IMG/VR virus record: IMGVR_UViG_3300042305_000730
Span: 1 to 64,000 of that record
Length of the DNA: 64,000 bases
Strand: one strand, 5' to 3'
DNA from: a virus
Positions 19,792 to 37,523 of the stretch are shown one piece after another. Within the stretch, counting starts at the first letter, position 1. Every line of letters starts with the position of its first letter. A program made the position numbers and the translations under genes. The notes beneath the pieces are model-generated. The model was not told the DNA's origin and searched no databases. It was given only the letters and a program-made list of their open reading frames with translations.

Positions 19792-19796
19792 AGACC

Positions 19797-19802
19797 ATTA
19801 TA
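19797..19802 (-). promoter_or_regulatory. -10 box of putative leaderless promoter (surface protein)
   Basis: TATAAT on the minus strand, five bases (GGTCT) before the GTG start at 19791. It lies in the gap after the Cys-rich small gene, giving the surface protein its own transcript. Confidence 0.55.
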
Positions 19803-19815
19803 GTCTCTTATTCTT

Positions 19816-20043
19816 TTACCATTTTTTTAATGGACAAACAGCGTGTTTTAGTTTTACTTTTGCTGCCATAAAACAGCCACACTCCTTACACTGCTTAGTC
19901 ACTTTTAAAAAACTAGGACATTCTAAACAAATAGCATACCTATCAGTGGCTTCTTGTTCATCTGCCCGTGCCATATTTGGGTTTACTAAATCCCAAGGAC
20001 GAGTGTCACCTAACTTCTTTTTGTATTCTTGCCATGCGTTCAC
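19816..20043 (-). CDS. Small Cys-rich zinc-binding-type protein
   Basis: A 75-residue protein with CLEC, CKECGC and a final C in HAVCPLKKW. The pattern CxxC...CxxCGCFMxxKxxLxxAxCP is a recurrent small phage family also seen in myoviruses; a zinc-binding fold is likely. GTG start overlaps the preceding stop by four bases (GTGA). No biochemical role is known to me. Confidence 0.7.
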   Translation of the reverse strand: MNAWQEYKKKLGDTRPWDLVNPNMARADEQEATDRYAICLECPSFLKVTKQCKECGCFMAAKVKLKHAVCPLKKW

Positions 20044-20297
20044 AAGGACTCCGATGGTTGCTGAAAGCCAGAGCCATCATGCGTCCAACCAAGAGTCACA
20101 GTATTAACCTCTTCTTGCGACATCTCTATAATTTTTGGGTCTGAACGCAATCCAGCAACTAAGGGTATGTGTATATTTCCGCCCACAGAAAAATGACCTG
20201 TAAAGTCTCCATCAACAATCACTCCAAAATGGACCATATTTAGCATTGCTTGTTGTATTACTGGGTTAACCGACATATCTTGTTCAAGTTCATTCAT
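20040..20297 (-). CDS. Small hypothetical protein of a recurrent phage type
   Basis: An 85-residue product with FGVIVDGDFTGHFSVGG...LVAGLRSDPKIIEMSQ. A short beta-domain with 'VIDGDV...ALxSDPKII' recurs in tail-adjacent genes of many aquatic phages. The gene begins a unit just downstream of the fibre genes. A TAGCCT box six bases before the ATG takes the place of a ribosome site. Confidence 0.5.
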   Translation of the reverse strand: MNELEQDMSVNPVIQQAMLNMVHFGVIVDGDFTGHFSVGGNIHIPLVAGLRSDPKIIEMSQEEVNTVTLGWTHDGSGFQQPSESL

Positions 20298-20303
20298 ACC
20301 TGT

Positions 20304-20309
20304 AGGCTA
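20304..20309 (-). promoter_or_regulatory. -10 box of putative leaderless promoter
   Basis: TAGCCT on the minus strand, six bases before the ATG at 20297. Matches only the TANNNT rule, so weaker than the TATAAT/TATACT cases. Confidence 0.3.
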
Positions 20310-20870
20310 GCACCCAAAACCAGGAAATATCCAAGCATCACAAACAGTAACAACAGGACAAGCACAGTTACAAGGGTCACATGCGGCAGGTGAACAGCGA
20401 CCATTATAAGCCACACAGTTTCTGTAAGCAAGACCACCAGGGAAACACTGAGTTTCAGTTACAGGGGACGCATTACAGGATGTACACAAAGGTGCGCCAG
20501 CACATGGATCAGGAGGTGGTGGCGGTGGTGGTTCTCCTCCTCCTCCTCCTCCACCTCCACCTCCACCTGCTGCTGCAGGAGTAACACTATTAGAGGAAAC
20601 CGAAACGGTATTTATTCCGTAACCGCTGACTGTCGTCACGGTAAATGTATAGGCAGTTCCATTACTTAAACCAGTTATTACTATAGGGGATGAGGAACCA
20701 CTTGCCGTAAGCGCACTTGGGGAAGAAACTACTTGATAAGTTGCTACGCCTTTTCCGTCGTGTGCAGCAGCAGTAAAACTTATTGTTGCTTGACCATCCC
20801 CCGCAGTTGCCGATATAGAAGTTGGTGCGTCTACAAACTTTCCGCTAGATGCGGTATTTCCATAAATCAC
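20307..20870 (-). CDS. FN3-domain protein with poly-Gly, poly-Pro and Cys-rich tail
   Basis: A 187-residue protein. Residues 15-98 are a fibronectin type III domain (ATISFTAAAHDGKGVATYQV, then ITGLSNGTAYTFTVTTVS). Then come 11 Gly in a row, seven Pro, and a C-terminal tail with about 15 Cys in 65 residues (APLCTSC, DPCNCACP). Such a dense Cys tail could form a disulfide knot on the virion exterior. It ends the fibre module. It overlaps the upstream gene by four bases. Confidence 0.68.
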   Translation of the reverse strand: MIYGNTASSGKFVDAPTSISATAGDGQATISFTAAAHDGKGVATYQVVSSPSALTASGSSSPIVITGLSNGTAYTFTVTTVSGYGINTVSVSSNSVTPAAAGGGGGGGGGGGEPPPPPPPDPCAGAPLCTSCNASPVTETQCFPGGLAYRNCVAYNGRCSPAACDPCNCACPVVTVCDAWIFPGFGC

Positions 20871-21529
20871 GAAGCGCTCAAATCACCAATCAAATACCAA
20901 GTGTCTGCTGTGGTGGTTTTAATTAGAGTTGCAGATGAGTACCTAGCACGTAGGTATACTCCTGGCGTTGCCAGAAGTGTAGTACCTGAAACAGTAATTT
21001 GTGTTTTTCCTGTTCCTGCTTGAATAATTGTAATCTGTGAACCAGGACTTAAAGTTAATTCATTAGAGACACGCACAACATTAGCGCTGCTAGAAGTCAT
21101 TTCAATTATTTTGTTTTTATCACTATTATCTACAATGTGTAAGGAAGTAGAGTTAGTGACAATAGGTGAGTCCATATTGCTAGCGACAATTGCCCAAGAG
21201 TTGGCTTCTCGCTTAATCAACTTCATTGAATCCCATTGACCAGTAAGTAAGGTTTGACCACTAACCCCATTAAGGGTTACACCACCAGCAGTAGTTACCG
21301 ATACAGTTCCAACCCCCGTTTGTAGTAGTTCAATAGTGTCACCAATATAGAATGAGGCAGTTGAGTCGGAAGGAATGGTTACTGTAATTGGGTTTATATT
21401 ATTTAACTCTACTATTTTAGATCTATCTTCCAGCACTAATGTGTAAGTCGTATTAGTTTGTGTGTTGATAGGTGTGAATGTGCCAATTAACCCTCTTGTT
21501 GCACTATTCTCAGATAGACGAGAAATCAC
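20867..21529 (-). CDS. Predicted tail-fibre/surface protein
   Basis: A 220-residue beta-rich protein with two repeats of the type 'Y-LVxxDxSKIVELNN...ITVTIPSDS..SFxIGDTIELLQTGxGTVSV' (first about 28-110, second about 125-215). This repeat is a common phage virion-surface module thought to trimerise. Part of the overlapping fibre operon. Confidence 0.6.
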   Translation of the reverse strand: MISRLSENSATRGLIGTFTPINTQTNTTYTLVLEDRSKIVELNNINPITVTIPSDSTASFYIGDTIELLQTGVGTVSVTTAGGVTLNGVSGQTLLTGQWDSMKLIKREANSWAIVASNMDSPIVTNSTSLHIVDNSDKNKIIEMTSSSANVVRVSNELTLSPGSQITIIQAGTGKTQITVSGTTLLATPGVYLRARYSSATLIKTTTADTWYLIGDLSAS

Positions 21530-21855
21530 GATATTTCTGCTCCAAACATTGAAAAGGACAAGTTTGCGCTAGAAGCATAAACAGTCACAACATCGGTAGC
21601 AGCCAAGGTAATACCTAGACTAAGGGTAACGGTGTCTTTAGCCATAATAACAGCATCAAAAATTATGTAGTGTAGGTTAGCCAACGTTGTTCCAGCGGGG
21701 CGAACGGCAACACGGTAAGTTGCTGATGCAGTGCCACGATTGCAGATAGACAGAGTTGAAGAAACAATTGACTTTCCTGCACCTACGGTCAAGATGTCTG
21801 TATTAGTGGTGGCTGATGGTGCGGACTGGGCTAAAACTTTATATGCTTGGGCCAC
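21526..21855 (-). CDS. Small virion-type beta protein
   Basis: A 109-residue product (GTG start, AAGGAG seven bases upstream). Pattern 'ILTVGAGKSIVSSTLSICNRGTASATYRVAV' and later 'DVVTVYASSANLSFSMFGAEI' matches small jelly-roll-like structural proteins found among fibre genes. Shares its design with the product of 30869-31228. Likely on the virion. Confidence 0.6.
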   Translation of the reverse strand: MAQAYKVLAQSAPSATTNTDILTVGAGKSIVSSTLSICNRGTASATYRVAVRPAGTTLANLHYIIFDAVIMAKDTVTLSLGITLAATDVVTVYASSANLSFSMFGAEIS

Positions 21856-21937
21856 GGGCTCTCCTTAAGGATTGTAATGCCCCATTTTACCCTAAATGGA
21901 AGGTAGGGATTAGTTATTCTCTGTGAAGAGTGCCATG

Positions 21938-22837
21938 TTATGAAATCCTATACCGAACGATAACGATACCACCAGCGCCATTGCCAGCGTAAAACACATT
22001 ATAAACTCCTTGTGCACCGTCACCACCTTCGCCTGGAGCAACGCCATGTCTCGCTTGTTGTCCAGTGTTTCTTCCAAGACCACCATAGCCACCAATAGCG
22101 TAAGTAGCAGAAGTTCCAGTTGAGTAGGTAGAAGCAAGTCCAGCACCGCCACCACCTCCGCCGTAGCCGCCATCACCGCCGCCACCTGCACCTGACTTAC
22201 CACCGCCACCACCGCCCGAACGATAACCTTGACCAGAGTTCGGACCTGCATTACCTCCTGCGTTACCTTCACCAGAAGTGCCTGCACCTCCCTCTCTTGG
22301 GGTATCGGCACCACCATATTCTGAACCGCCACCACCGCCAGAACCACCGCCAGCGCCAGCAGGGGGGTTTCCACCACCAACACCACCTCTACCACCACCA
22401 GAGCAACTTGAAAAAGAGCCAAACGAACTTCCAGTGCCGCTTGCACCAGCACCACCTCCACCGCCCACCGTGATGGTATGGGTGCCAGCAGTTACTGCAA
22501 GTGCAGTTGCTGTACGCATACCGCCCGCACCACCACCTCCACCTCCGTTGCCACCATTGCCACCTCCACCACCAGCAACTACAACATAGTCAACAGTTGG
22601 GTAGTTGCCAAGATCTGAAATAACAAAACTTCCTGATCCTGTAAATGTGTGTGCCTTATATAAAATGCCACTTTCAACATAAGTGTTTATAGTTCCGCCA
22701 GTAGCGACCATAAAAGATTCACCACCACCAGCCCAATAAGAAGCAACTTGTCCCGTAGAGCCACGAGTTAATCGGGGGTTGAGAAAGCCAGCGCCAATAG
22801 AGCGTCCACCGCTCATTGAGTTGTTAATAAGGCCCAT
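21938..22837 (-). CDS. Glycine-rich fibre/adhesin-type protein 1
   Basis: About 299 residues. The start is set at 22837 (MGLINNSMSGGRSIGAG) because the upstream extension would overlap the preceding gene. After an N-terminal segment with LNPRLTRGSTGQVASYWAGGG comes VDYVVVAGGGGGNGG, then about 170 residues dominated by Gly-Gly runs, ending GIVIVRYRIS. Such arrays in T-even-like adhesins fold as packed polyglycine type II helices that present specificity loops. Host-receptor binding is inferred. Confidence 0.68.
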   Translation of the reverse strand: MGLINNSMSGGRSIGAGFLNPRLTRGSTGQVASYWAGGGESFMVATGGTINTYVESGILYKAHTFTGSGSFVISDLGNYPTVDYVVVAGGGGGNGGNGGGGGGAGGMRTATALAVTAGTHTITVGGGGGAGASGTGSSFGSFSSCSGGGRGGVGGGNPPAGAGGGSGGGGGSEYGGADTPREGGAGTSGEGNAGGNAGPNSGQGYRSGGGGGGKSGAGGGGDGGYGGGGGGAGLASTYSTGTSATYAIGGYGGLGRNTGQQARHGVAPGEGGDGAQGVYNVFYAGNGAGGIVIVRYRIS

Positions 22838-22848
22838 ATAGTTAGAGC

Positions 22849-23208
22849 CTACGCTATTACGTTGACATACCCGTGAATGACAATTGCGGTACCAGTTGCA
22901 GCCCAAGCACGAACAATAAGGGGTGTTGCATTACCTTTAATCAGGAGTCCAGGGGCAATTAAGTAGAGACCATTTTCGGCTTTTACGGTGTATTCAATGT
23001 CGTCAGTTCCAGCAGTTGTTCCACCCCACTGGATGGTGAGTTTACGATCTGTTGTGTCGTAGTTCTGTGCATACAACCAAACTTCATGCAGTGTTGCTGC
23101 GGTTGCCGAACCAGTATGTATTGTTGTTCCTGGACTAGAGGTAGCGGCAACAAGAATACCCCTACCGTCAGTTGATCCACTGAGAATTGTTTTGCTAAAT
23201 GTTGCCAT
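22849..23208 (-). CDS. Small virion-type beta protein
   Basis: A 119-residue product with 'TTIHTGSATAATLHEVWLYAQNYDTTDRKLTIQWGGT' and 'DIEYTV...LIAPGLLIKGNATPLIVRAWA'. This beta-sandwich type is frequent in tail-fibre regions of aquatic phages. AGGAG before the ATG; it ends 11 bases before adhesin 1, so these two may be a pair. Confidence 0.6.
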   Translation of the reverse strand: MATFSKTILSGSTDGRGILVAATSSPGTTIHTGSATAATLHEVWLYAQNYDTTDRKLTIQWGGTTAGTDDIEYTVKAENGLYLIAPGLLIKGNATPLIVRAWAATGTAIVIHGYVNVIA

Positions 23209-23216
23209 AAGTTCTC

Positions 23217-23741
23217 CTAATTAAATATTCTGTTGTTTAAAACTACTTGGTCATCTTCCCAGCCAGTAATTTTTGTTGTTGCAATAGCCGCCGAAGCATT
23301 AATATCTGCGTCCACAATCGTACCATCAGCCAACATGGTGGATGTGATAGTGCCAGATGGAGCGCTGAAGGTGCCCGTAAATGAAGCATTGTTGGTAGGG
23401 GCTTTTGCGTTGACCTGAGTTTGAAGGGCCGAAGTTACGCCATCAAGGTAACTAATCTCTGTAGCAGAGACATCACCGATAGACGTGGTAGATGGGAGCA
23501 CTACAGTTCCTGTGAAGGTTGGGGCGGCAGTTGTCGCCAAGCCAGTGACCACACCCGTATTGCCGTTTACCGAGGTAACGCCACCCTGGTAGGCAAGGCT
23601 GTTCCATGCGGTAGAGCCATTACCAAGTTTAAGTTTTCCTGTGTCGGTTTCGCCACCCAGTTCACCAGAGGCAAGAGTCGGGTTAGCCGCAGTCCAAGCC
23701 GCCGCCGTGTCCCTACGAATCAATATTCGTCTAGTTGTCAT
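23217..23741 (-). CDS. Fibre protein with Mtd-N-like N-terminus, copy 1
   Basis: A 174-residue protein. The N-terminus RRILIRRDTAAAWTAANP, then ASGELGGETDTGKLKLGNG, matches the N-terminal domain of major-tropism-determinant-like fibres. It continues with collagen-like or coiled-coil spacer sequence (SVNGNTGVVTG; ATEISYLDGVTSALQTQVNAK), which forms trimeric shafts. It is paralogous to 24741-25178. GGAGATAACC precedes the ATG. Confidence 0.7.
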   Translation of the reverse strand: MTTRRILIRRDTAAAWTAANPTLASGELGGETDTGKLKLGNGSTAWNSLAYQGGVTSVNGNTGVVTGLATTAAPTFTGTVVLPSTTSIGDVSATEISYLDGVTSALQTQVNAKAPTNNASFTGTFSAPSGTITSTMLADGTIVDADINASAAIATTKITGWEDDQVVLNNRIFN

Positions 23742-23818
23742 TGGTTATCTCCAAATGGGCTTTACAACCATAATACTATCATTGCTGGTTTGAATGGGTA
23801 TACCAGTTTACTAGCATT

Positions 23819-24721
23819 TTAGAAAGTGATGCTACCTGAACTTAAAAATTGATAAATACGGAATCCACCAGCAAGTATCACGGTTGGAGAACCTGTTGTC
23901 GCAACGGCCTCAGTAAACGAATCTGGATAGCGAATAACAACAACACCTGAGCCACCTGAACCTGCGGAGTGGTAGACACCACCTCCGAAACCAGCACCTC
24001 CTCCACCTCCGCCTCTATTTACTGATCCATTACCGCCATTTGAGTTGTTACCACCACTACCTCCAACGCTAGAACCACCAGTTCCACTTAGTCCAGCACC
24101 ACCACCACCAGCATAAAATAAAGATGTACCAGTAATAGACGAAGAGGCACCAGTTCCTCCGTTTACTCCAGAACCCGCAGACCCCTTACCGCCACCACCG
24201 CCTGCGTTTGCAGCACTTTGTTGTGCAGCACCAGCATTGCCCTGCCCAGCAATGCCAGTTCCTGGTGGATCTACATATTGGTTTTGGTTTGCTCCACCAC
24301 CACCCGATCCACCGTTGCCAGCGTTATATCTCTGACCTCCACCAATACCAGCACCACGTCCACCACCCGTAGCAGTAATTGTCGTAAAACCAGACCCAGT
24401 TATTGTTGAGTTTGAGCCGTTACTGCCTTCACCAGAACCACCGCCAATAGTTATTGAGTATGGAACTGCGGTGAGTACAGCGACTGTGCTTTCAATCATG
24501 CCTCCTGCGCCACCACCAGCACCAGACCAACCTTGATAGTTATCTGGACCGCCACCGCCACCGCCAGCGACAATGAGGTATTCAACTATTGACGGTGCGG
24601 TTACACCGCCGCCAGCCCAATAGATTGCGGCCTGGCTTGTGTTTCCACGGTTGCGTCGTGGGTTGAGGGAACCGCCAGAAACAGCCCTTCCACCAGAAAC
24701 AACCTTGTTTAGATCAACCAT
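23819..24721 (-). CDS. Glycine-rich fibre/adhesin-type protein 2
   Basis: A 300-residue protein with N-terminal SGGSLNPRRNRGNTSQAAIYWAGGG shared with copy 1, then IVEYLIVAGGGGGG and a long Gly-rich array ending SGVVVIRYPDSFTEAVATTGSPTVILAGGFRIYQFLSSGSITF. The closing block 'GSPTV...GGYRIYxFxxSGSITF' is shared with the copy at 30000-30869. Predicted adhesin. Confidence 0.68.
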   Translation of the reverse strand: MVDLNKVVSGGRAVSGGSLNPRRNRGNTSQAAIYWAGGGVTAPSIVEYLIVAGGGGGGPDNYQGWSGAGGGAGGMIESTVAVLTAVPYSITIGGGSGEGSNGSNSTITGSGFTTITATGGGRGAGIGGGQRYNAGNGGSGGGGANQNQYVDPPGTGIAGQGNAGAAQQSAANAGGGGGKGSAGSGVNGGTGASSSITGTSLFYAGGGGAGLSGTGGSSVGGSGGNNSNGGNGSVNRGGGGGGAGFGGGVYHSAGSGGSGVVVIRYPDSFTEAVATTGSPTVILAGGFRIYQFLSSGSITF

Positions 24722-24740
24722 GTGTACACCTTTTGATTAA

Positions 24741-25178
24741 CTAAAATATCTGAGAAGCCAGAATGATTTGGTCGTCTTCAGCGAAACCGCTAGGCATTGT
24801 AACAGTTCCCGTAAACGTTGGGGACGCAAGGTTTGCCTTGAGGTCCAAAGCAGTTTGTTGAGCAGTAGAAACTGGTTTATTTGCATCACTTGTATTGTCT
24901 ACGTTACCAAGCCCCACCATACTCTTGGTTACACCAGAAACAGTTCCTGTAAATGTTGGGTTAGCGGCAGGGGCAAGTCCAGTAACGACACCAGTTTGAC
25001 CGTTTACAGAAGTAACATTATTTTGGTAACCCAAACTGTTCCACGCTATTGCGCCTGTTCCAAGTTTAAGTTTTCCTGTATCGGTCTCATGCCCGAACTC
25101 CCCAGCGGCAAGCGTTGGGTTGTTTGCGGTCCAGTTTGCAGCCGTGTCACGGCGAATAAGAATGCGGCGGTATGCCAT
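24741..25178 (-). CDS. Fibre protein with Mtd-N-like N-terminus, copy 2
   Basis: A 145-residue paralogue of 23217-23741: RRILIRRDTAANWTANNP, FGHETDTGKLKLGTG, SVNGQTGVVTG. It lacks the longer C-terminal part of copy 1. The ATG overlaps the stop of the 59-residue gene upstream (TAATG). Likely part of a trimeric fibre stalk. Confidence 0.7.
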   Translation of the reverse strand: MAYRRILIRRDTAANWTANNPTLAAGEFGHETDTGKLKLGTGAIAWNSLGYQNNVTSVNGQTGVVTGLAPAANPTFTGTVSGVTKSMVGLGNVDNTSDANKPVSTAQQTALDLKANLASPTFTGTVTMPSGFAEDDQIILASQIF

Positions 25179-25357
25179 TATGCGCTCCCACCATCATCTA
25201 CAAAGTAATCATTAAGTGGGGTGTCAGAGAAGCCGCTATCAGAGATAGTTTGTGGGAAGCGCTTCCAAACACCGTCAAGATAGCGCCAAACCATACCTCC
25301 AGCGATATACTCATCTCCAGAAGATGGAGAGTTGGGGAAATCAATTGGTGCGGGCAT
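25178..25357 (-). CDS. Stand-alone fibre N-terminal module (59 aa)
   Basis: Product MPAPIDFPNSPSSGDEYIAGG, then VWRYLDGVWKRF. It matches the first about 40 residues of the three large adhesins upstream (IDFPNSP...D.F..G...W.YDG..W) but has no Gly-rich array. Both its start and stop overlap neighbouring genes by the TAATG arrangement. It looks like a retained attachment domain after loss of the adhesin part, or a decoy or capping subunit. Confidence 0.65.
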   Translation of the reverse strand: MPAPIDFPNSPSSGDEYIAGGMVWRYLDGVWKRFPQTISDSGFSDTPLNDYFVDDGGSA

Positions 25358-26829
25358 TATGCAACCACCAAACTTCCTGAAGCCGTAAATGTTCTAACGG
25401 TGTACGAACCAGAAGTTGTTTCAGTTCCGCCTGTAATAGTGGAACCTGAAACGTCTGCTGTCAGATAACGAACTATAACTACACCTGAACCACCAGCGGC
25501 ACCATTGCTGTAACTGCCGAACAAATCTCCGCCACCGCCACCACCGCCAGTGTTTGCCGTGCCAGCGACCGAAACAGTTGTTTGTCGTTTTGCACCGTTG
25601 CCGCCTCCGCCAGAACCACCAGCGCCAACAGAAACACTGTTGCCGCAAGCACCACCACCACCGCCCGCACGAGTAACGGCTGTGCCTGTTATAGATGAAC
25701 TGACTCCGTTCCCACCAGAGGTTGTTCCAACAGCACCAGCACCGCCACCACCTCCACCTCTATATCCCTCATTGGTGGGTGTGTTGTTTCCTGCACCTCC
25801 TGAGTAACCTTGGCTTGTCGTACCAGCACCACCAGCACCAACGTTGTATGAGCCACCACCACCCGAACCGCCAGAAGAACCATTAGAACTAAGTCCGCCA
25901 CCGCCACCACCGCCTGTTGAAGTGATAGTTGAAAAGACAGATGAAACGCCGTTGGTACCATTTACAAATTGAGAAGTGGACCCAGCACCACCAGCACCAA
26001 CTGTGACTGTATAAGTCCCAGGAGTGATAGCAAAAGACGCTTCGGCAGAGGCACCACCACCCGATGTAGCCCCACTTACATTTGTCCTATAACCACCAGC
26101 ACCACCACCGCCTGAAGCCTCCCCACCACCGCCAGCACCACCAGCAATGACGAGGTATTCAACAGAAAGGTTTGCTGTAGTAAATGAAACGGCAGAGGAT
26201 TCTGATGAGCCAGCACCCAAAGCGTTTACCGCTTTAAGTTTTACGTAGTAAGTAGTACCAACAGCAAGACCAGTAATGGTGATTGGGCTTGTGCCATCCG
26301 CTGGTGAAAGTGCTGTGTAAGAACCGTATGTTGTACCACCGTTAGTGGATAGCGCATATTGGTAGTTTGTAATTGTTGAACCACCATCAGCACCTGCTGT
26401 GAATGTGAGAGTGACAGACGATGCACCAGCAGACCCTGATACCGCTACAGATGTCGGTGCTGCAGTAGGTACTGTCGTAATGGCAGAAACCCAAGCGCTC
26501 CCATCCCACCGCTGTAAAGCAGATGTATCAGTAAGAAAAATGAATTGACCAGTAAAAGGTGACGGAATTACAGAAGAGCGGTTTTCAGTAGTAGTTACTG
26601 TAATGCCTGATAGTCCAGAAGCAAGTTTGGCTTGAGTTACTGCCCCAGAATTAATCTTGGCTTCAGTGATAGCGTTAGAAGCAATCTTTGCCGCTGTTAC
26701 TTCGCCTGTAGAAATAGTATAAGAGTTAGCAGTAATTAGGCCCCAAGTGGTGCCGTCAAATATCCACTTCTTTCCACCTGACGTGAAAGAATCATTTGTG
26801 GCTGGAGAGTCAGGAAAGTTAATAGCCAT
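25357..26829 (-). CDS. FN3 plus glycine-rich adhesin-type protein 3
   Basis: A 490-residue modular protein: an N-terminal attachment module (INFPDSPATNDSF...WIFDGTTWG), a helical/repeat segment with AKIxSxAxTxAKI units, an FN3 domain (about 120-220; TLTFTAGADGGSTITNYQYAL), then LSVEYLVIAGGAGG and a Gly-rich array, and a C-terminal block GSGVVIVRYLTADVSG with TVRTFTASGSLVVA. Strongly paralogous to the next gene; a 53-base DNA stretch is identical. Confidence 0.7.
   Translation of the reverse strand: MAINFPDSPATNDSFTSGGKKWIFDGTTWGLITANSYTISTGEVTAAKIASNAITEAKINSGAVTQAKLASGLSGITVTTTENRSSVIPSPFTGQFIFLTDTSALQRWDGSAWVSAITTVPTAAPTSVAVSGSAGASSVTLTFTAGADGGSTITNYQYALSTNGGTTYGSYTALSPADGTSPITITGLAVGTTYYVKLKAVNALGAGSSESSAVSFTTANLSVEYLVIAGGAGGGGEASGGGGAGGYRTNVSGATSGGGASAEASFAITPGTYTVTVGAGGAGSTSQFVNGTNGVSSVFSTITSTGGGGGGGLSSNGSSGGSGGGGSYNVGAGGAGTTSQGYSGGAGNNTPTNEGYRGGGGGGAGAVGTTSGGNGVSSSITGTAVTRAGGGGGACGNSVSVGAGGSGGGGNGAKRQTTVSVAGTANTGGGGGGGDLFGSYSNGAAGGSGVVIVRYLTADVSGSTITGGTETTSGSYTVRTFTASGSLVVA
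26323..26375. repeat. 53-base exact repeat in adhesin genes (copy 1)
   Basis: Identical to 27851-27903. Lies in the FN3 part of adhesin 3 and its counterpart in adhesin 4. Flanks are also similar (about 85-90% by eye over 200 bases). Confidence 0.85.
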
Positions 26830-26830
26830 A

Positions 26831-28420
26831 CTAAGATATTACTAGGCTTCCTGATGCAGTAAATGTACGAACAGTGTAAGACCCTGAAGTTGTTGCAGTA
26901 CCACCAGTAACTGTCCTATCAGAAAAACTTGCTGTTAAATAACGAACAATTACTACTCCTGAACCGCCGTTACCACCAGAAGCAGGGCCTACGTGAGCGC
27001 CACCACCGCCACCACCGCCAGTATTTGCTGTTCCAGCACCGCCTTCTGCTGGTGAGTTAAAACCGCCTTGCCCACCACCGCCAGCACCACCAGAACCTGG
27101 GGTTCTTGCTCCCGTATTGTTGTTCTGTGAGCCACCACCTCCACCGCCTCTTGTCACTGCCGTACCCGTTATGGACGAAGACACTCCTGCACCGCCATTG
27201 CCACCATTGGATGTAGACCAGTCCAACCCAACTGCTCCTGCGCCACCTCCACCACCTCCGCCAAGTGCCACGCCACCAGTGTGTCCACCACGACCACCCG
27301 CATATCCTTGGTTCGCTGTTCCTGCACCAGCGGTGTTTGGTTCAACACCTCCGCCACCACCTCCACCGCCACCACCGCCAGAGCCACCAGTTGAACCTGC
27401 GAATGATGCTTGTGTCCCTGCTTTGCCGCCACCAATAGATGTCACGGTTGCAAATACTGAATCTGCGCCATTTGTGTATGCCGAAGAACCTACACGTCCA
27501 ATTCCTCCAGCACCAACAGTCACCGTGTAAGTACCCAAAGCAAGAGTCATTGCTGCTTCAGCAGAAGCACCACCACCACTTGTAGCACCTGTTACGTTTG
27601 TTCGGTAGCCTCCTGCACCTCCGCCACCACCGCCAGCACTGTCAGCGCCACCACCTCCGCCACCGCCGCCAGCAATTACAAGGTATTCAACAGAAAGGCT
27701 TGCTGTAGTAAACGAAACAGCAGAAGACTCCGACGACCCAGCACCCAAAGCATTCACTGCTTTAAGTTTTACATTGTAAGCAGTACCAACAGCAAGTCCA
27801 GTAATGGTGATTGGGCTTGAAGCATCGGCGGGAGAAAGTGCCGTGTACTCACCGTATGTTGTACCACCGTTAGTGGATAGCGCATATTGGTAGTTTGTAA
27901 TTGCTGAACCACCATCAGCGCCAGCGGAGAACGTAAGTGTGACTGAACTAGAGGTAGGGGAGCCTGACACCGCTACAGAAGCAGGCGCACCTGTCGGCAC
28001 CGTGGTAATTGCAACAACCCAAGTACTACCGTCCCAACGCTGTAATTGACTTGTATCAGTTAGAAAAATGAATTGACCATTGAAAGGGGACGGGATAACA
28101 GCAGAGCGGTTAGCCGTAGTAGTTACTGTAATGCCCGATAAACCTGAAGCAAGTTTGTCTTGAGTAACGGCACCAGAATTAATCTTGGCAGTTGTTACAG
28201 CATCAGACGCAATTTTTGCTGCCGTGATATTGGCATCCAAAATCTTTGCTGTAGTTACAGCACTAGCGGCTATTTTGTCGGTAGTTACAGCGCCCGTTTC
28301 AATGGATGCCTCGGCTTGAGAAATAACCACAACCCATGCTGTGCCATTGTATTTCCACGTAGTAGTACCTACGGTGAATTCATCGTTAAGGGATGGAGAG
28401 TTAGGGAAATCTATAGCCAT
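26831..28420 (-). CDS. FN3 plus glycine-rich adhesin-type protein 4
   Basis: A 529-residue paralogue of adhesin 3 with the same order: attachment module (IDFPNSPSLNDEF), an expanded set of AxxTTAKI repeats (five units against two or three), FN3 domain, VEYLVIAGGGGGGGGAD, Gly-rich array with different loops, GSGVVIVRYLTASFSD and a C-terminal TVRTFTASGSLVIS. The variable loops between Gly runs would carry binding specificity. Confidence 0.7.
   Translation of the reverse strand: MAIDFPNSPSLNDEFTVGTTTWKYNGTAWVVVISQAEASIETGAVTTDKIAASAVTTAKILDANITAAKIASDAVTTAKINSGAVTQDKLASGLSGITVTTTANRSAVIPSPFNGQFIFLTDTSQLQRWDGSTWVVAITTVPTGAPASVAVSGSPTSSSVTLTFSAGADGGSAITNYQYALSTNGGTTYGEYTALSPADASSPITITGLAVGTAYNVKLKAVNALGAGSSESSAVSFTTASLSVEYLVIAGGGGGGGGADSAGGGGGGAGGYRTNVTGATSGGGASAEAAMTLALGTYTVTVGAGGIGRVGSSAYTNGADSVFATVTSIGGGKAGTQASFAGSTGGSGGGGGGGGGGGVEPNTAGAGTANQGYAGGRGGHTGGVALGGGGGGGAGAVGLDWSTSNGGNGGAGVSSSITGTAVTRGGGGGGSQNNNTGARTPGSGGAGGGGQGGFNSPAEGGAGTANTGGGGGGGAHVGPASGGNGGSGVVIVRYLTASFSDRTVTGGTATTSGSYTVRTFTASGSLVIS
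27851..27903. repeat. 53-base exact repeat in adhesin genes (copy 2)
   Basis: Second copy of the repeat described for 26323-26375, in the FN3 domain of adhesin 4. Confidence 0.85.
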
Positions 28421-29616
28421 TATGCAATCACCAAACTTCCCGATGCTGTGAATGTTCTAACGGTGTATAAACCTGAAGTTGTGGCAGTACCACCAGTGAT
28501 GGTTTTGCCTGAGGCACTTGCCGTGAGGTAGCGAACAATGACAACACCAGAACCACCAGCGCCGCCAATTCCAGTATCAAAATTGTAGGCTCCACCACCG
28601 CCACCTCCAGTATTTGCTGTACCAGAAGTTCCATTACCTGCCGCACCACCAGCGTTAGTGCCACCAGCACCACCGCCACCGTTACCTCCTGCACCCGCTA
28701 GAGAGTTGCCTGCGGTATCTCTGCTATCTGCACCGCCTCCACCACCTGCATAGAAGGTTGCCGTTCCAGTGATAGACGAAGAAACACCTGCACCACCGTT
28801 AACTGGTACTGCACTTGAAGTGCCATTTGTTCCAACGGCTCCCGCACCACCACCACCACCATTGCTTCGTGGACTGACTTGTCCGCTTCCTCCACGAAAT
28901 CCCTGTCCAGTTGTTCCAGCACCAAAACTAGTTGAAGGGTAGGACGAGCCTCCTCCAGAACCGCCTGCCTGACCCGCTCCTCCTGATGTTTCGCTACCAC
29001 CACCACCACCACCTGTAGAAGTAATAGCATTGAAGGAGGAAGCAACCCCATTAGAGCCTGGCGAAGTATCAACAGTTGCTCCTGCGCCACCAGCACCAAC
29101 TGTTACCGTGTATGTTCCTGCAACCAAAACCATTGATGCTTCTGCACTCGCCCCTCCACCAGATGTTGCACCAGAAACGTTTGTTCTAAAGCCTCCAGCG
29201 CCACCTCCACCAGCACGGTCAGAACCCCCTCCTCCGCCGCCTGCAACAACCAGGTATTCAGCATAAAATGTTTTCGTATGCTGTGTACCGTCAGACCAAC
29301 CATCTGACAAATACACCTTCATCAAATTCGTATCTGTTTCAAAAACTGTTTGCCCAACAAAAGGAGAACCTGGTCTCGTACTGGAAGTACACACTGTTAC
29401 CACTGGAACTGTAGAAGCAAGTTTGGCTGAAGTTATTGTACTGTCAGCAATTTTGGCTGCCGTAACAGCACTAGACGCTAATTCGGTTGTACCAATAGAA
29501 CCAGCCGCAGCAACTGTTCCAGTAATTTCCCAAATCGTTCCTGACCATGTCCAAGTACGTGCACCTACCGTGTAGGTATCACCAACGCTTGGAGAGGCGG
29601 GAAAAGTAAGGGACAT
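28420..29616 (-). CDS. Glycine-rich adhesin-type protein 5
   Basis: A 398-residue member with the attachment module (LTFPASPSVGDTYTVG, WTWSGTIWE) and TAAKI repeats but no FN3 domain; AEYLVVAGGGGGG follows directly. The array ends GSGVVIVRYLTASASG and TVRTFTASGSLVIA. Absence of FN3 shows that modules have been gained or lost between copies. Shares one base of overlap with the previous gene's frame. Confidence 0.7.
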   Translation of the reverse strand: MSLTFPASPSVGDTYTVGARTWTWSGTIWEITGTVAAAGSIGTTELASSAVTAAKIADSTITSAKLASTVPVVTVCTSSTRPGSPFVGQTVFETDTNLMKVYLSDGWSDGTQHTKTFYAEYLVVAGGGGGGSDRAGGGGAGGFRTNVSGATSGGGASAEASMVLVAGTYTVTVGAGGAGATVDTSPGSNGVASSFNAITSTGGGGGGSETSGGAGQAGGSGGGSSYPSTSFGAGTTGQGFRGGSGQVSPRSNGGGGGAGAVGTNGTSSAVPVNGGAGVSSSITGTATFYAGGGGGADSRDTAGNSLAGAGGNGGGGAGGTNAGGAAGNGTSGTANTGGGGGGAYNFDTGIGGAGGSGVVIVRYLTASASGKTITGGTATTSGLYTVRTFTASGSLVIA

Positions 29617-29619
29617 CTA

Positions 29620-29988
29620 TTATTCCGAAGGAATAACGATTTCCACCCACTCTTGCTCTTCTTCGTCCCAACTGTACATACCCTCTTCTGGGCGAGCAAC
29701 TGGTGCTTCCCATTCAGTGGTGTCTTCATTAAGCGTCCAAGAAGGGAAAGGTTTGGGGGCGATGTATGCGTCTAGGGCAGAGTTATAGGTGTAGCCGATA
29801 CCTGCATAGCGAGCACGCATGTTGCCGTTGTACGAGGTCTGCTTCCACGTTCCACCCAACAGATTACGACAGAACTCAGCGCCTACGGCCTCTGATTCGT
29901 CGCCCTCTGCGTCTTTGCAATCATCGTTAGATACTACGATTACTCGCAATACAATGTTGTCTTCGCCAATTTCAGCAAAATGTGCCAT
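29620..29988 (-). CDS. Conserved phage protein between fibre genes
   Basis: A 122-residue product, MAHFAEIGEDNIVLRVIVVS, with GGTWKQTSYNGNMRARYAGIG, APKPFPSWTLNEDT and a Glu/Trp-rich end. This is a widespread family of tail-region proteins in aquatic phages; I know no determined function. Ribosome site CTAGGAGAAATTAAC. It probably is a virion or fibre-assembly part. Confidence 0.72.
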   Translation of the reverse strand: MAHFAEIGEDNIVLRVIVVSNDDCKDAEGDESEAVGAEFCRNLLGGTWKQTSYNGNMRARYAGIGYTYNSALDAYIAPKPFPSWTLNEDTTEWEAPVARPEEGMYSWDEEEQEWVEIVIPSE

Positions 29989-29999
29989 GTTAATTTCTC

Positions 30000-30869
30000 C
30001 TAGAAGGTTATGCTGCCAGATGCAGTAAAAGTATATATCCTGTAGCCACCTGTTGTTGCTACGGTTGGGGAACCAGTAGTTGATACTGCTAAATCAAATG
30101 CGTTTGAGTAGCGAATGACGACTATGCCTGAACCACCGCTACCACCTACACCGTTGGCATAGTACCAGCCACCACCACCTCCACCGCCAGTACTGGCTGT
30201 GCCAGAGGTAGCAGTTCCTCCAGAACCAGCGCCTCCACCCCCCAATCCACCGCTACCACCACCACCACCATCAGTTGTTCCTCCGCCGCCACCAGCATAA
30301 TAAACAGATGTGCCTGTTATTGACGATTGTACACCCACACCACCGTTTGATCCTGAACCTGCTGCGCCAGCACCGCCTCCACCACCTCCACCTTGAGACA
30401 CACCTGATGCACCATCATAACCTTGCCTTGGTGGTCCTGCAGTACCAGACCCAGCAGCACCGCTTCCAGTACCAGCGTAAGAAGCGCTACCGCCACCTGA
30501 ACCGCCTGAACCTGCATTTGTTCCTGGATTTGATGTTGCACCTCTACCACCACCAATAGATGTCTGACTAAATGCAGAACTATTTTGACCGTTTGAACCA
30601 GCGGCAGTAGGACCAGCACCTGATCCGCCAGCGCCAATCGTTATTGTATAGGTAGTTGCAGCAGTAATTGCCGTATTACCAGTAAGCAACCCACCACCAC
30701 CACCACCACCAGCAGTTCCTCCAGAACCACCTCCACCACCTGCAACAATCAGATATTCAATAGATGATGGATTGTTTGGCATTAATACTTGTTGAAGGGT
30801 GGTTAAGTTTAACATCCCACTTTTAGTGGTTCGCTTCGGTCCAATAGAACCACCAGGTCCTCTAGCCAT
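30000..30869 (-). CDS. Glycine-rich adhesin-type protein 6
   Basis: A 289-residue protein starting ARGPGGSIGPKRTTKSG, lacking the FPNSP attachment module, with IEYLIVAGGGGGSGG, a Gly-rich array and the end SGIVVIRYSNAFDLAVSTTGSPTVATTGGYRIYTFTASGSITF. Its closing block is closest to adhesin 2. Start follows a TAATG overlap with the preceding gene. Confidence 0.68.
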   Translation of the reverse strand: MARGPGGSIGPKRTTKSGMLNLTTLQQVLMPNNPSSIEYLIVAGGGGGSGGTAGGGGGGGLLTGNTAITAATTYTITIGAGGSGAGPTAAGSNGQNSSAFSQTSIGGGRGATSNPGTNAGSGGSGGGSASYAGTGSGAAGSGTAGPPRQGYDGASGVSQGGGGGGGAGAAGSGSNGGVGVQSSITGTSVYYAGGGGGTTDGGGGGSGGLGGGGAGSGGTATSGTASTGGGGGGGWYYANGVGGSGGSGIVVIRYSNAFDLAVSTTGSPTVATTGGYRIYTFTASGSITF

Positions 30870-31228
30870 TAACTAATCTCCTCATAACTACATACTGCTT
30901 CAAGATCAGAGTTAGCAGAAGCAGTGAGGCGCAAATCATCGCCTTCTTCTAGATAAATAGATTTACTAATGACATCTAGTGTCGCATCTGGTGGGACAGA
31001 AACAGTGTGGGCAATTTCATAAGAAATAGAAGCGGAAGAACGATACAAACCAACTGAAATGTCTGCGGCATTCGTACCGTCAACGTTTGCTATGTACAAG
31101 GCATTGACCTTAAGCACCTTGCCGCTTGATGCCGCATTTGTGACAATAGCAGTAGCCGATGTTGTTACTAGTTGTACAGCCGTCTTACCTAAGATGGTTG
31201 TTACGTTGACGATATTTGGTGCTGCCAT
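30869..31228 (-). CDS. Small virion-type beta protein
   Basis: A 119-residue product: 'TTSATAIVTNAASSGKVLKVNALYIANVDGTNAADISVGLYRSS' and 'AHTVSVPPDATLDVISKSIYLEEGDDLRLTAS'. A jelly-roll-like small structural family common next to fibre genes in T4-like cyanophages and others. Likely virion. Confidence 0.65.
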   Translation of the reverse strand: MAAPNIVNVTTILGKTAVQLVTTSATAIVTNAASSGKVLKVNALYIANVDGTNAADISVGLYRSSASISYEIAHTVSVPPDATLDVISKSIYLEEGDDLRLTASANSDLEAVCSYEEIS

Positions 31229-31229
31229 T

Positions 31230-32480
31230 TTAGCCTCCGAAAACTATTGACATTGCGATTGCTTTACCTGTTGAAACTGGGGTAGCCCATTTTAGACCAG
31301 TTGCTGTAGAAGAATCTACTGTAAGAACTTGACCAGCAGAACCAGCCGTGAGACCGCCAATAGTGTTATCGGCAGTTCCGACAAGAAGGTCACCTTTAGC
31401 ATTAATGGTGTTTACGAGAGCGCTAAATGGAGAAGCGCCAACTTCAATCCAATTTGTTCCGTAATAAACATAGGTACCACCCGTAAGTGAGTTAAACCAG
31501 ATTTGCCCAGAAACAGGTGATGCTGGGGCGGAATCTTGCACACTGGCGGTTACACCTGATGCACCAATTTCAATCCACGAAGAATCGTAATAAACAAAGG
31601 TTTGTGCGGTATCGGTATCAAACCACATACTTCCTTCAAGTGGAGATGCAGGGGCGGAAGAACTAGACACCATTCGTGCGCCCGTACCTACACCACCAAC
31701 CTCAATCCATTGAGAGTCGTAGTAAACAAATGTCTTGCCAACCGTAGAGTCAAACCAAAGTTGACCAGCCAATGGTGCTGCGGGGGCTGTATCAGAGATA
31801 GTTGCGCCACCAATAATTGTTTCAGGAACCCAAGCCGTACCATTCCACTTCAAGAATTGCCCAGCGGATGCCACAGAAGCAGAAACGTCACCAATGTCAT
31901 CCAAGGTATTAATAGTTGGGATGGTTCCGTTCACCCAACGAGTTCCATCAAACTTTAGGAATTGACCGCTAACAGGGACGGTAAACAGAACATCAGAAAG
32001 GTCAGTAAGGTCTTCTACGAGGTCTGGTTCGCCACTTGCTTGTAGCCAATGGCTATCGTAATAAATGTAAGTTTCTAGTGTTGTTGAGTTAAACCAAAGG
32101 TCTCCTTCTGATGGAGAAGCGGGTGCGGTAGCAGAAACTTCTAGGCTTGCACCACCACCACCAAAGGATGCTGAGGCGGAAACAAACTTAGTACCATCAA
32201 ACTTAAGAACTTGGTCAGTAGTCGCACCTGTTGGGTCAATCTCAATGTTGTCTACAAATAGAGTTGGTGTTTTAAAAGTGTCATCGGTGCGAAGAACATC
32301 AGCACCATCACGGTAAAGGTTTACATCTCCATTACCAGAACCAGGGCCCCAAGTAAGGCGACCGCCTGCTTCAATCTTTAAGCGAGCATATGTGTCAGCG
32401 TCAACAAATACGGTTATAGCCTCAGAACCAGCAGATGTTAACTGCTTGACAGTAATAGGTACTGTAAATTTCTGTGCCAC
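31230..32480 (-). CDS. Fibre protein with tandem W-F-Y repeats
   Basis: A 416-residue protein (GTG start with GAGG upstream). After an N-terminal segment with GPGSGNGDVNLYRDGADVLRT there are four or five tandem repeats of about 45 residues containing APASPxEGxxWFxxxTxxTxVYYDSxWIEIG, alternating with 'QFLKFDGTRWVNGTIPT' repeats. Such repeats form trimeric beta-structured fibre shafts. C-terminal LLVGTADNTIGGLTAGSAGQVLTVD is a common fibre motif. Confidence 0.72.
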   Translation of the reverse strand: MAQKFTVPITVKQLTSAGSEAITVFVDADTYARLKIEAGGRLTWGPGSGNGDVNLYRDGADVLRTDDTFKTPTLFVDNIEIDPTGATTDQVLKFDGTKFVSASASFGGGGASLEVSATAPASPSEGDLWFNSTTLETYIYYDSHWLQASGEPDLVEDLTDLSDVLFTVPVSGQFLKFDGTRWVNGTIPTINTLDDIGDVSASVASAGQFLKWNGTAWVPETIIGGATISDTAPAAPLAGQLWFDSTVGKTFVYYDSQWIEVGGVGTGARMVSSSSAPASPLEGSMWFDTDTAQTFVYYDSSWIEIGASGVTASVQDSAPASPVSGQIWFNSLTGGTYVYYGTNWIEVGASPFSALVNTINAKGDLLVGTADNTIGGLTAGSAGQVLTVDSSTATGLKWATPVSTGKAIAMSIVFGG

Positions 32481-32527
32481 GACCTCAATCGCTTCCTATG
32501 TTGTGACCCCGCAAGGTCTATTTGCTA

Positions 32528-33823
32528 TTAACCTACTACAACGATGGTGTAATCGTTAGCCGAAATCGTACCGTACAGAACAACTGACAGGGTGTCTGCG
32601 TTAGAACGGGTCACATCTCCAATTACCGTAGCACCAGTTGATACTTCATAAATCTGCACGTTTACATCGGTTGTATTAAAGTTGTGGGTAACAGTGGTAG
32701 TTGAAACACCTGTACTGCTTGCGGCACAACCCTGTTTAGCAATACGGGCAAGTGCTGAGGTAGTTGTTGTAACTGCACCAGCGCTGGTTTTAATACCAAG
32801 GTTTGTACGAGCAGTTGCTGCATCACTTGCACCAGTACCACCGTCTGCAACAGCAACGTCTGTACCATTCCAAACACCTGTGGTAATTGTCCCGAGGGTT
32901 GTAATTGAAGACTGACCAACATAGTTTGCAGAAATGTCTACAGAATCAGCATTAACTGTAATACGGTTTGTTGTACCAACCACATCAAGCGTATTTCCGC
33001 TCTTTGTGAGACCATCGCCAGCAATGACTTGACCAGCACCTGAGAACTGAACAAAGGTTAACCCTGTTGTTCCAAGAGTAATCGTGTCGTTTGTTGTAAG
33101 AACAAAACCGTTGTCTCCGTTTACTGTACCTTCAGCAACGAAGGTAAACATTCCTGTCGTAACTTTTGCTGATGTATTGGCATCAGTTGCGCGAGAGGCG
33201 GCACCAGAAGCAACCGCTACATAAATACCGTTTTCAGATGCTGTGCTCTGGTCTTTGAGGAGAACACGATCACCAGCAACAAGTGTGACTCCGTCAATTA
33301 CGTCGCCTGCTTCAAGAGCCGAAGCGATTGCCACTGGAGCAACGGAAGCGACTCTTACTGAATCTTTGACATCAAGACCTTGACGAGCGGCATCAACATA
33401 ACCCTTGGTGGCAATGTGTGCGGCATCTGTTGGGTCGGCAACTTTTGCGTTACCAGAGGCATCTCGCTTGACAAGTTTGCTTGCAGTTGCATCTGAGGTT
33501 GCATCTGTGAGCATCTGCCACATTGCGGCTGGTAATAGACCCGCACTATCAGTATCAGCAACAGCAAGAGTAAGGGTAACTGTGCCGTTTGATTCAGATA
33601 CGGTAAGGGCTTCAGCAATACCTGCACCACCACCTGAAACAATGGTGTGTGGTAGCGAGCGCCAAGCACTGTTTGCATAAACCTTAATTGTGTCAGTCGT
33701 GGACTGGTAAATTAAGCGGCCTTCAAAGTTACCACTTGATGGGTCTGCGCCCACAACCTCAAAGGTAGCGTTAATCAGTTGATTCTGATTAAGGTCAATA
33801 TTAGTTAGAAACTTCTGAGCCAT
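32528..33823 (-). CDS. Tail-fibre-like protein
   Basis: A 431-residue protein. The N-terminus (MAQKFLTNIDLNQNQLIN) and a central block 'ATKGYVDAARQGLDVKDSVRVAS...VDGVTLVAGDRVLLKDQSTASENGIYVA' are typical of long phage tail fibres; the C-terminal part has 'VWNGTDVAVADGGTGA' and a small domain with HNFNTTDVNVQIYEVSTG. AAGGACACTTA before ATG. Receptor-binding or shaft role inferred. Confidence 0.75.
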   Translation of the reverse strand: MAQKFLTNIDLNQNQLINATFEVVGADPSSGNFEGRLIYQSTTDTIKVYANSAWRSLPHTIVSGGGAGIAEALTVSESNGTVTLTLAVADTDSAGLLPAAMWQMLTDATSDATASKLVKRDASGNAKVADPTDAAHIATKGYVDAARQGLDVKDSVRVASVAPVAIASALEAGDVIDGVTLVAGDRVLLKDQSTASENGIYVAVASGAASRATDANTSAKVTTGMFTFVAEGTVNGDNGFVLTTNDTITLGTTGLTFVQFSGAGQVIAGDGLTKSGNTLDVVGTTNRITVNADSVDISANYVGQSSITTLGTITTGVWNGTDVAVADGGTGASDAATARTNLGIKTSAGAVTTTTSALARIAKQGCAASSTGVSTTTVTHNFNTTDVNVQIYEVSTGATVIGDVTRSNADTLSVVLYGTISANDYTIVVVG

Positions 33824-33832
33824 TAAGTGTCC

Positions 33833-34291
33833 TTACGTGAGGTAGGCGTATCCTGAGAACGCTGATGTAAAGTTTACTACAACTTGTGTGGTGCTTACAT
33901 AGGTGACTTCTCCGATAACGACTGTTTTGGCGCTATCCACGATAGATACTGATGGGTATCCACCCAAAGCATGATTAATTGTCCATGTTGTAGAGGTTGT
34001 TCCTTGAGTATGTATATGCCGAACGGAGGCTGGGTAAACAAGGTTTAATACTTGGTTAGGCGCAATCCCTGTAATGCTGGCACTTGCGTCAGTGGCAACA
34101 GTAACCGTCCCAATAGATAGAGCGTTTGGAGGGCCAGCAACGCCTGGATCGCTAACAATCAAATCTACAGTGGAAATTTCCCCAGTGACTAGAGACTCTA
34201 CTGCCGCAGAATCTTGAAGAACTACTGTACTTTTTGGAGATGTAATGACAACACTGGTGTCATCATCCAGAGTTAAGACATAATCAGGCAT
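33833..34291 (-). CDS. Fibre-tip or virion protein with C-terminal beta domain
   Basis: A 152-residue protein: an N-terminal Asp/Ser/Val-rich part and a C-terminal domain 'TTWTINHALGGYPSVSIVDSAKTVVIGEVTYVSTTQVVVNFTSAFSGYAYLT'. This terminal domain occurs at ends of many phage fibre proteins. Overlaps the preceding gene by eight bases. Confidence 0.65.
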   Translation of the reverse strand: MPDYVLTLDDDTSVVITSPKSTVVLQDSAAVESLVTGEISTVDLIVSDPGVAGPPNALSIGTVTVATDASASITGIAPNQVLNLVYPASVRHIHTQGTTSTTWTINHALGGYPSVSIVDSAKTVVIGEVTYVSTTQVVVNFTSAFSGYAYLT

Positions 34292-34994
34292 ACGGGTTCG
34301 TGGAGATGGATGCGTCTACTGAAATGGTTCCAGCGGCTAGTCGTTCCCAGTCTCCTGCCGAATCTTGGACAAATAGATCAAAGGTATGAACTCCCGCTGG
34401 AATACTGTTTTTATCAGAAATATGCATTTCTAGAGTTACTCCTGCTTTTGGAGCCAAGTAACCCCTTCTATTTGCCGTAAGTGCAACAATTGTATTTTCT
34501 GCTGGAATGGATGAATACCAACGTAGATCTAGTACCGTAGTGCCAGCAGTATCCTTTGCTTGCAAGTAGGCATTAGTGACAGCCTGTAACGTGCCAGTGC
34601 TGTCTTTCCATGTAAAAGTTTTGCGGAAATCCTCATATTGTTTCATACGAAGTTCCATATATTGAGCCTCATCTCTATCAGTAACGGTGTCGCCTGTATT
34701 GACAGTAATGACCCCTTTAGTTACTTGATAGTAAACATCGTCATAAACTGCTAAGACATCATACTCTAAGTTACCAATTGGCAACTCTAGTGTTTCTGCA
34801 GCGGTTAGGTAAAGACGAACATCCCCTGATCCGTTAACCGTTGCCGTGATGTTTTTCTTAGACTGGGTAGTTGTTTGTATCTGGGCTTTAACAGCACTAG
34901 GTACCATTTTCCTTCGCCTAGTTTTGCTCTTAATACAAATTATACGATCAAACGGCAAACCACGGGAGGCAGTGTAATTAACGGTTCGGGCCAT
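34284..34994 (-). CDS. Virion protein, first gene of the fibre module
   Basis: A 236-residue beta-rich product with 'GSGDVRLYLTAAETLELPIG...YDVLAVYDDVYYQVTKG' and 'EMHISDKNSIPAGVHTFDLFVQDSAGDW'. Similar layout to baseplate-adjacent beta proteins. It has no ribosome site; TAAACT stands six bases before the ATG, so it may open the fibre transcript without a leader. Confidence 0.6.
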   Translation of the reverse strand: MARTVNYTASRGLPFDRIICIKSKTRRRKMVPSAVKAQIQTTTQSKKNITATVNGSGDVRLYLTAAETLELPIGNLEYDVLAVYDDVYYQVTKGVITVNTGDTVTDRDEAQYMELRMKQYEDFRKTFTWKDSTGTLQAVTNAYLQAKDTAGTTVLDLRWYSSIPAENTIVALTANRRGYLAPKAGVTLEMHISDKNSIPAGVHTFDLFVQDSAGDWERLAAGTISVDASISTNPYA

Positions 34995-35000
34995 TGCAAC

Positions 35001-35006
35001 AGTTTA
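35001..35006 (-). promoter_or_regulatory. -10 box of putative leaderless promoter (fibre module)
   Basis: TAAACT on the minus strand, six bases before the ATG at 34994. No Shine-Dalgarno in between. Confidence 0.4.
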
Positions 35007-35014
35007 CTACAAGG

Positions 35015-35314: not shown

Positions 35315-35320
35315 CCTTAA

Positions 35321-35326
35321 AGATTA
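35321..35326 (-). promoter_or_regulatory. -10 box of putative leaderless promoter (HicA-like)
   Basis: TAATCT on the minus strand, six bases before the ATG at 35314. Confidence 0.4.
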
Positions 35327-35566: not shown

Positions 35567-35575
35567 ATTTTCTCC

Positions 35576-35734: not shown

Positions 35735-35749
35735 GCCATTGTCCTATCA

Positions 35750-36020: not shown

Positions 36021-36040
36021 AACTTTAAGCATAGTATAAG

Positions 36041-37330: not shown

Positions 37331-37336
37331 AGGTTA

Positions 37337-37342
37337 ATTATA
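37337..37342 (-). promoter_or_regulatory. -10 box of putative leaderless promoter (HEWGH protein)
   Basis: TATAAT on the minus strand, six bases (TAACCT) before the ATG at 37330. Confidence 0.55.
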
Positions 37343-37347
37343 AACCA

Positions 37348-37521: not shown

Positions 37522-37523
37522 AG

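Follow-up and report, generated by a model that had tools for sequence, protein, structure and literature searches.

A six-gene array of glycine-rich heads on different mounts

The stretch of viral DNA analysed here (positions 1 to 64,000 of IMG/VR record IMGVR_UViG_3300042305_000730, 64,000 nucleotides, hereafter the window) contains, between positions 21938 and 30869, six intact minus-strand open reading frames (ORFs) encoding proteins with a glycine-rich domain, which are named A6 to A1 in the order of transcription. The domain, which we refer to as the head, makes up the C-terminal part or nearly the entire product of each gene, and is carried on what we call a mount (Table 1). All 97 kb of the record hold exactly six copies of the Pfam family PF21722, namely those of the array itself. 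The head-bearing genes do not occupy the interval alone: five other genes are interleaved with them (22849-23208, 23217-23741, 24741-25178, 25178-25357 and 29620-29988), two of which encode an Mtd_N anchor domain. The A5/A4 and A4/A3 gene borders abut or overlap on the same strand. Because the listed TTG start of A1 (22906) runs into the upstream gene, its start was taken to be the ATG at 22837, which comes after the upstream stop at 22849.

Several different mounts are used, and the copies differ in their FN3 domains, attachment modules and repeats much as the initial annotation of this locus had described. A3, A4 and A5 bring their own N-terminal anchors of the FPxSP...W type, with FN3 limited to A3 and A4, while the mounts of A6, A2 and A1 are short, and the genes themselves lie behind small separate genes or fibre bases with Mtd_N. 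The front parts of A3 and A4 share 78% nucleotide identity across 722 nt, and the alignment indicates that these two genes are partial duplicates.

Two genes for WhiB transcription factors (53715-54059 and 55159-55569), which have been called a key marker of actinophages (PMC10202952), a major capsid protein and a terminase that are 60% and 45% identical to those of the WhiB-encoding Streptomyces phage BRock (Borockvirus), and a tail sheath point to a contractile-tailed phage (myophage) of an actinobacterium.

Table 1 Array genes, heads and flanking features in the window
Feature	Position	Strand	Description	Supporting match
A6	30000..30869	-	289 aa: 37-aa mount (MARGPGGSIGPKR...), glycine-rich head, 35-aa C-terminal strand module	PF21722 E 1.2e-23; phrog_2295 E 7e-46
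A6 head	30108..30758	-	residues 38-254	profile bounds
A5	28420..29616	-	398 aa: 'FPASPSVGDTYT...W' anchor, short repeats, head; no FN3	PF21722 E 5.5e-22
A5 head	28528..29259	-	residues 120-363	
A4	26831..28420	-	529 aa: 'FPNSP' anchor, ~10-aa repeats, FN3, head	PF21722 E 4.7e-12; fn3 E 1e-8
A4 head	26939..27688	-	residues 245-494	
A3	25357..26829	-	490 aa: 'FPDSPATNDSF' anchor, repeats, FN3, head	PF21722 E 4.7e-19; fn3 E 4.5e-9
A3 head	25465..26160	-	residues 224-455	
A2	23819..24721	-	300 aa: 46-aa mount, head at residues 47-265 (23927-24583)	PF21722 E 1.9e-15
A1	21938..22837	-	299 aa from ATG 22837: strand module, then C-terminal head; most diverged copy	
phrog_7759 gene	29620..29988	-	between A6 and A5	phrog_7759 E 5e-45
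119-aa gene	30869..31228	-	directly upstream of A6	
119-aa gene	22849..23208	-	directly upstream of A1; 64% aa identity and dS 1.8 to the twin phage	phrog_30535
Mtd_N fibre base	23217..23741	-	upstream of A1	PF18454 E 3e-13
Mtd_N fibre base	24741..25178	-	directly upstream of A2	PF18454 E 1.2e-13
Two tail-fibre-like genes	31230..33823 (31230-32480, 32528-33823)	-	upstream of the array; 99% aa identity to the twin phage	PHROG tail fibre / virion decoration

The heads are related beyond their shared composition

The six domains are 214-250 residues long, contain 36-43% glycine and have 9-10 runs of at least three glycines each. All six match phrog_2295, and five of them exceed the curated cut-off of PF21722 across nearly the full profile; A1 is marginal, with 21 bits on its own (cut-off 24.3) and 24.6 bits when neighbouring pieces are included. 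A separate profile trained on 56 heads, all from other phages, scores the six copies at 35-182 bits, and here A1 reaches 34.8 bits against -11.3 for the best of its shuffled versions. In these controls every glycine was kept in place, and for each of the six copies none of 200 shuffles attained the observed profile score. The resemblance is therefore more than a matter of composition, which disposes of a low-complexity artefact and confirms the six-copy array that had been proposed from the sequence. The motifs said to bracket the domain hold as a consensus and not as exact strings: the start motif 'EYLIVAGGGGGG' is exact in A2 only, the other copies reading EYLIVAGGGGGS, EYLVVAGGGGGG, EYLVIAGGGGGG, EYLVIAGGAGGG and DYVVVAGGGGGN, and the end motif SGVVIVRY is exact in A3-A5, with SGVVVIRY, SGIVVIRY and GGIVIVRY in the remaining copies. 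A phmmer search of A6 against the sequences of the PDB returned only chance matches to SecG.

An ordered predicted fold with variable loops

The AlphaFold2 model of A6, built from an input of 24 homologues, has a mean predicted local distance difference test (pLDDT) score of 90.3 and a predicted template modelling (pTM) score of 0.85, and every 10-residue block of the domain scores between 83 and 98, so the glycine-rich part is predicted to be ordered; disorder, the outcome that the initial annotation had named as refuting it, is not what the model shows. In the model of full-length A4 the head residues likewise lie mostly between 81 and 97. In the A6 model the glycine runs are confidently placed, mostly neither helix nor strand, set between short strands and connected by loops on a beta base. 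This arrangement, together with the fold matches given below, is consistent with, and not proof of, polyglycine II (PGII) packing of the runs; of the fold put forward in the initial annotation, the ordered domain, the conserved glycine runs and the variable loops are borne out, and the helix packing has good, if indirect, support. The nearest solved fold found with Foldseek is the tail tip of phage Bxb1 (9D93; E 1.1e-3, probability 1.00), the matched chain of which is, judging from its length, probably gp33. The next matches, which are insignificant, include the glycine-rich domains of ALK/LTK, and both these and the Bxb1 tail tip have been described as polyproline II (PPII)/polyglycine bundles (PMC13243192). 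In a library of viral models, 134 proteins matched at E<=0.001, most of them glycine-rich, without a name and from uncultured phages, and full-length A4 as the Foldseek query recovered FN3 domains only.

An alignment of 62 heads shows the same division: columns with 85-100% glycine alternate with high-entropy, indel-bearing segments. In A6 numbering, glycine is mostly at 80-100% at, for example, positions 44-48, 54-60, 106-108, 122-127, 163-166, 194-195, 207-213, 228-233 and 245-248, the exceptions within these blocks being an alanine at 58 and serine or alanine at a few other positions. The segments in between have entropies of 2.5-3.8 bits and carry insertions of up to 17 residues, so that glycine cores and variable loops alternate, as had been expected of the loop regions.

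Heads are exchanged between phages and between mounts

A close relative of the phage, hereafter the twin (L126), is 98.2% identical at the nucleotide level over 30674-37523 and 98.9% identical over 19677-21916, and the array between these blocks is not. Synonymous divergence (dS) from the twin is 0.00-0.11 in the outer flanking genes and 0.11-0.27 in the small genes within or beside the array, except for 22849-23208 (1.8). In contrast to these flanks, the heads of A6, A5 and A3 show dS of 1.3-1.4 and non-synonymous divergence (dN) of 0.43-0.49 (1.40 and 0.49 for A5), and the whole of A2 and A1 shows dS of 1.2-1.4 and dN of 0.52-0.55. The mounts retain 84-89% amino-acid identity. The transitions fall at the head borders: nucleotide identity in A6 is ~90% before the head, 33-67% within it and 93-100% again at the C-terminal strand, and the first 60 codons of A5 are identical or nearly so, with divergence beyond them. 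Hypervariability through point mutation in situ is rejected as the main source of this pattern, because synonymous sites in the heads are saturated while the outer flanks are nearly identical. A misassembly of the twin is argued against by the presence of the same head-bearing genes in three separate contigs (L009/L010/L020).

Individual heads were also compared with those of a more distant phage (L127). At the amino-acid level, the A3 head shares 94% identity with the head in the A3 slot of L127 and 48% with that of the twin, although the neighbouring genes of L127 (roughly 74-87% nucleotide identity) are clearly less similar than those of the twin. The A4 head is 81% identical to an L127 head that sits on an unrelated mount, a pairing with a Shimodaira-Hasegawa-like approximate likelihood ratio (SH-aLRT) support of 99, and a second highlighted pair on the tree of the 62 heads likewise joins different mounts. 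On this tree the mount label requires 21 changes against a minimum of 6 and is nonetheless clustered beyond chance; since many of the inner branches have weak support (28 of 59 are open), this count serves as a guide, and the two cross-mount pairs together with the inversion of similarity between L126 and L127 are the firm points. These alignments indicate that heads are replaced wholesale, probably by recombination, while the neighbourhood stays almost identical, and the exchange that they demonstrate runs between phages and between mounts. Records of the larger relatives that share these mounts contain 3-8 copies of PF21722 each, and other head-bearing phages have 2-9 matching stretches.

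Comparison with known glycine-rich adhesins

The initial annotation had filed these proteins with the T-even adhesins exemplified by S16 gp38, an assignment that fails. S16 gp38 matches both GP38 families, PF05268 and PF21721 (E 4e-73 and 1e-19), and no window protein matches either; the array belongs instead to PF21722, in an actinobacterial myophage. Alignment of the head profile with gp38 in hhalign gave a probability of 0.3%, the gp38 structure is absent among the Foldseek matches listed, and our own head profile gave no signal above glycine-kept shuffles against either S16 gp38 or Bxb1 gp33. The genomic context also differs from the T-even, gp37-linked setting, as the array phage bases its fibres on Mtd_N proteins or on anchors built into the head-bearing proteins. 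The gp38 proteins of Salmonella phage S16 and E. coli phage PP01/T2 do resemble the heads in having glycine-rich motifs parted by hypervariable segments, a beta base and receptor-binding distal loops (PMC6851490, PMC12892980), but they occur as one copy capping gp37 and recognize a Gram-negative porin. Given the actinobacterial host, the OmpC receptor model of S16/PP01 cannot be transferred to the array.

Other systems are nearer in one respect or another. Gp33 of the mycobacteriophage Bxb1, a tail wing brush domain, matches PF21722 (E 1.2e-11), comes from a phage with an actinobacterial host and forms a glycine-rich PPII bundle (PMC13243192); Bxb1 is, however, a siphophage with a different tail, and the window differs from it in having six copies on different mounts with exchange of heads. 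Gp24 of the cyanophage Pam3 (7YPX/7YFW) has a distal glycine-rich lattice with a variable tip, and its profile match (E 0.0018) is weak and prone to composition effects; it differs in being a single, simple trimeric fibre with a TNF-like domain. The precedent closest in logic is provided by the hafunaviruses (HF1-like), haloarchaeal viruses with glycine-rich tail adhesins. Members of a single species of these viruses carry different adhesins of this type, and their host ranges differ as well (PMC8651126). They are described as having one adhesin gene per genome and infect archaea, as opposed to the six genes here.

Neighbouring genes

Two small genes recur beside the heads. In 38 of 51 distinct cases the phrog_7759 gene is the next gene downstream of one that bears a head, and in 23 of 29 distinct cases a 119-aa gene of the type at 30869-31228 is the next gene upstream of one; both counts are biased upward, as most of the loci were retrieved with the sequences of heads or mounts, and are nonetheless far above random placement in a locus of ~15 genes. 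The phrog_7759 protein, relatives of which also occur in Pelagibacter and Synechococcus phages, has no match to known chaperones in Pfam. By analogy with Pam3, in which the gene for the chaperone gp25 directly follows that of the fibre gp24 (PMC9608196), it may help the heads to fold. The 30869-31228 protein is a candidate fibre-to-adhesin adaptor. A6 is preceded by the tail-fibre-like genes and then this gene, and A1 by an Mtd_N gene and then another 119-aa gene. The latter (22849-23208) diverges from the twin as strongly as the heads do, unlike its neighbours.

A 59-aa ORF at 25178-25357 has the FPNSP anchor motif and no head, is 78-98% identical in relatives and is possibly a bare mount. 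Outside the array, a second stretch without alignment to the twin (37524-38121) lies between blocks of 98-99% identity and holds a 191-aa ORF without a Pfam match. On the other side lie an FN3 protein that has a run of 11 glycines, a run of prolines and a C-terminal or N-terminal end rich in cysteine (20307-20870), a 635-aa protein that contains a long Thr/Ser linker and possibly a signal peptide (17884-19791; conserved at 68% in a relative) and, downstream of the array, an NAD-dependent epimerase (14397-15263). Further ORFs between 15260 and 17612, covered by one Pfam search, are candidates for sugar or methyl transfer.

Discussion

We consider it probable that the array encodes several displayed adhesins, whose heads sit on different mounts and are replaced by recombination in a way that changes specificity. 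In such a scheme each head would be a small beta framework from which the conserved glycine runs extend, probably packed as PGII helices, and the variable loops would make contact with the surface of the host. A3, A4 and A5 would be attached through their own anchors, and A1, A2 and A6 through the fibre bases or adaptor-like proteins encoded just before them, all six adhesins probably being made and displayed. Recombination would then replace a whole head with one from another phage or mount, leaving the anchor and the C-terminal strand in place and shifting host specificity.

Several observations weigh against this interpretation. Besides the open branches of the head tree, the template modelling (TM) scores to the Bxb1 chain are just 0.35-0.42, and BRock, the closest isolated relative by the genes of its capsid head, has zero PF21722 copies. 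In seven close pairs of heads, amino-acid change amounts to 17.9% in loops and 7.0% in cores (~2.5-fold), a contrast that is partly circular since the loop limits were drawn from the same alignment. The corresponding ratios of non-synonymous to synonymous change (pN/pS) are 0.31 and 0.11, both below 1, and positive selection on point mutations in the loops, considered as a candidate, was not seen.

The same heads could form a general-purpose sticky brush, of the kind suggested for the brush domains of Bxb1, with which the phage would cling to the envelope of actinobacteria irrespective of the strain. The PF21722 match of the solved gp33 and the position of the Bxb1 tail tip as top fold match speak for this idea, as does a published discussion in which brush domains of this kind are connected with cell walls rich in lipids (PMC13243795). 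We regard it as unlikely, because it gives no clear reason why heads should be replaced between near-identical phages or why several mounts should be used. Another option is that one head is expressed while the others are stored donors that are copied into it, in keeping with the partial duplication of A3 and A4 and with the movement of heads between mounts. The six genes, however, look expressed rather than stored, because all are intact, with their own starts and mounts, on one strand and in part abutting or overlapping; the heads of A3 and A5 are only 66% identical, so no recent copying within the genome is seen, and such an arrangement is improbable. The initial annotation, which had placed a receptor-specificity reservoir in one phage, is only partly right on this point: six copies are present, and the head variation is best read as a reservoir at the level of the population, not as a silent one within the genome.

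A structural role in head or tail decoration is very improbable: the gene at 32528-33823 does match families with annotations for head decoration in addition to tail fibre, but a variation that is confined to exposed loops and whole heads would be unexpected for structural decoration, and the neighbours are of Mtd_N and tail-fibre type. Mtd is the target of a diversity-generating retroelement in Bordetella phage BPP-1, and Mtd_N domains do lie within the array, but a retroelement or other targeted mutator is scarcely credible as the driver of the variation, since the 97-kb record (possibly incomplete) has no match to a reverse transcriptase (RVT_1) and the large indels and saturated synonymous change are unlike targeted substitutions.

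Returning to displayed, exchangeable adhesins, a broader proposal is plausible, if a little more apt to be wrong than right: freshwater-type actinobacterial myophages would form a multi-slot system, displaying 3-8 different polyglycine-type heads at once, each kind on its own anchor, and swapping them between slots and phages through conserved joints, namely the first strand and the C-terminal strand. A virion would thereby sample several receptors, and a lineage could shift its specificity slot by slot.

The family phrog_2295 is labelled 'unknown function' in PHROGs, though it is widespread among uncultured aquatic phages; the head-for-head comparison supplies direct genomic evidence that it is the replaced, specificity-like part, and defines the boundaries between head and mount. 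Klebsiella phages are known to carry multiple receptor-binding proteins and use depolymerase spikes for this purpose. If several heads are displayed together, the array phage would resemble them, with compact glycine lattices in place of such spikes. At a wider scale, the replacement within the array agrees with the variable tail islands that have been described for phages of freshwater actinobacteria (PMC10202952).

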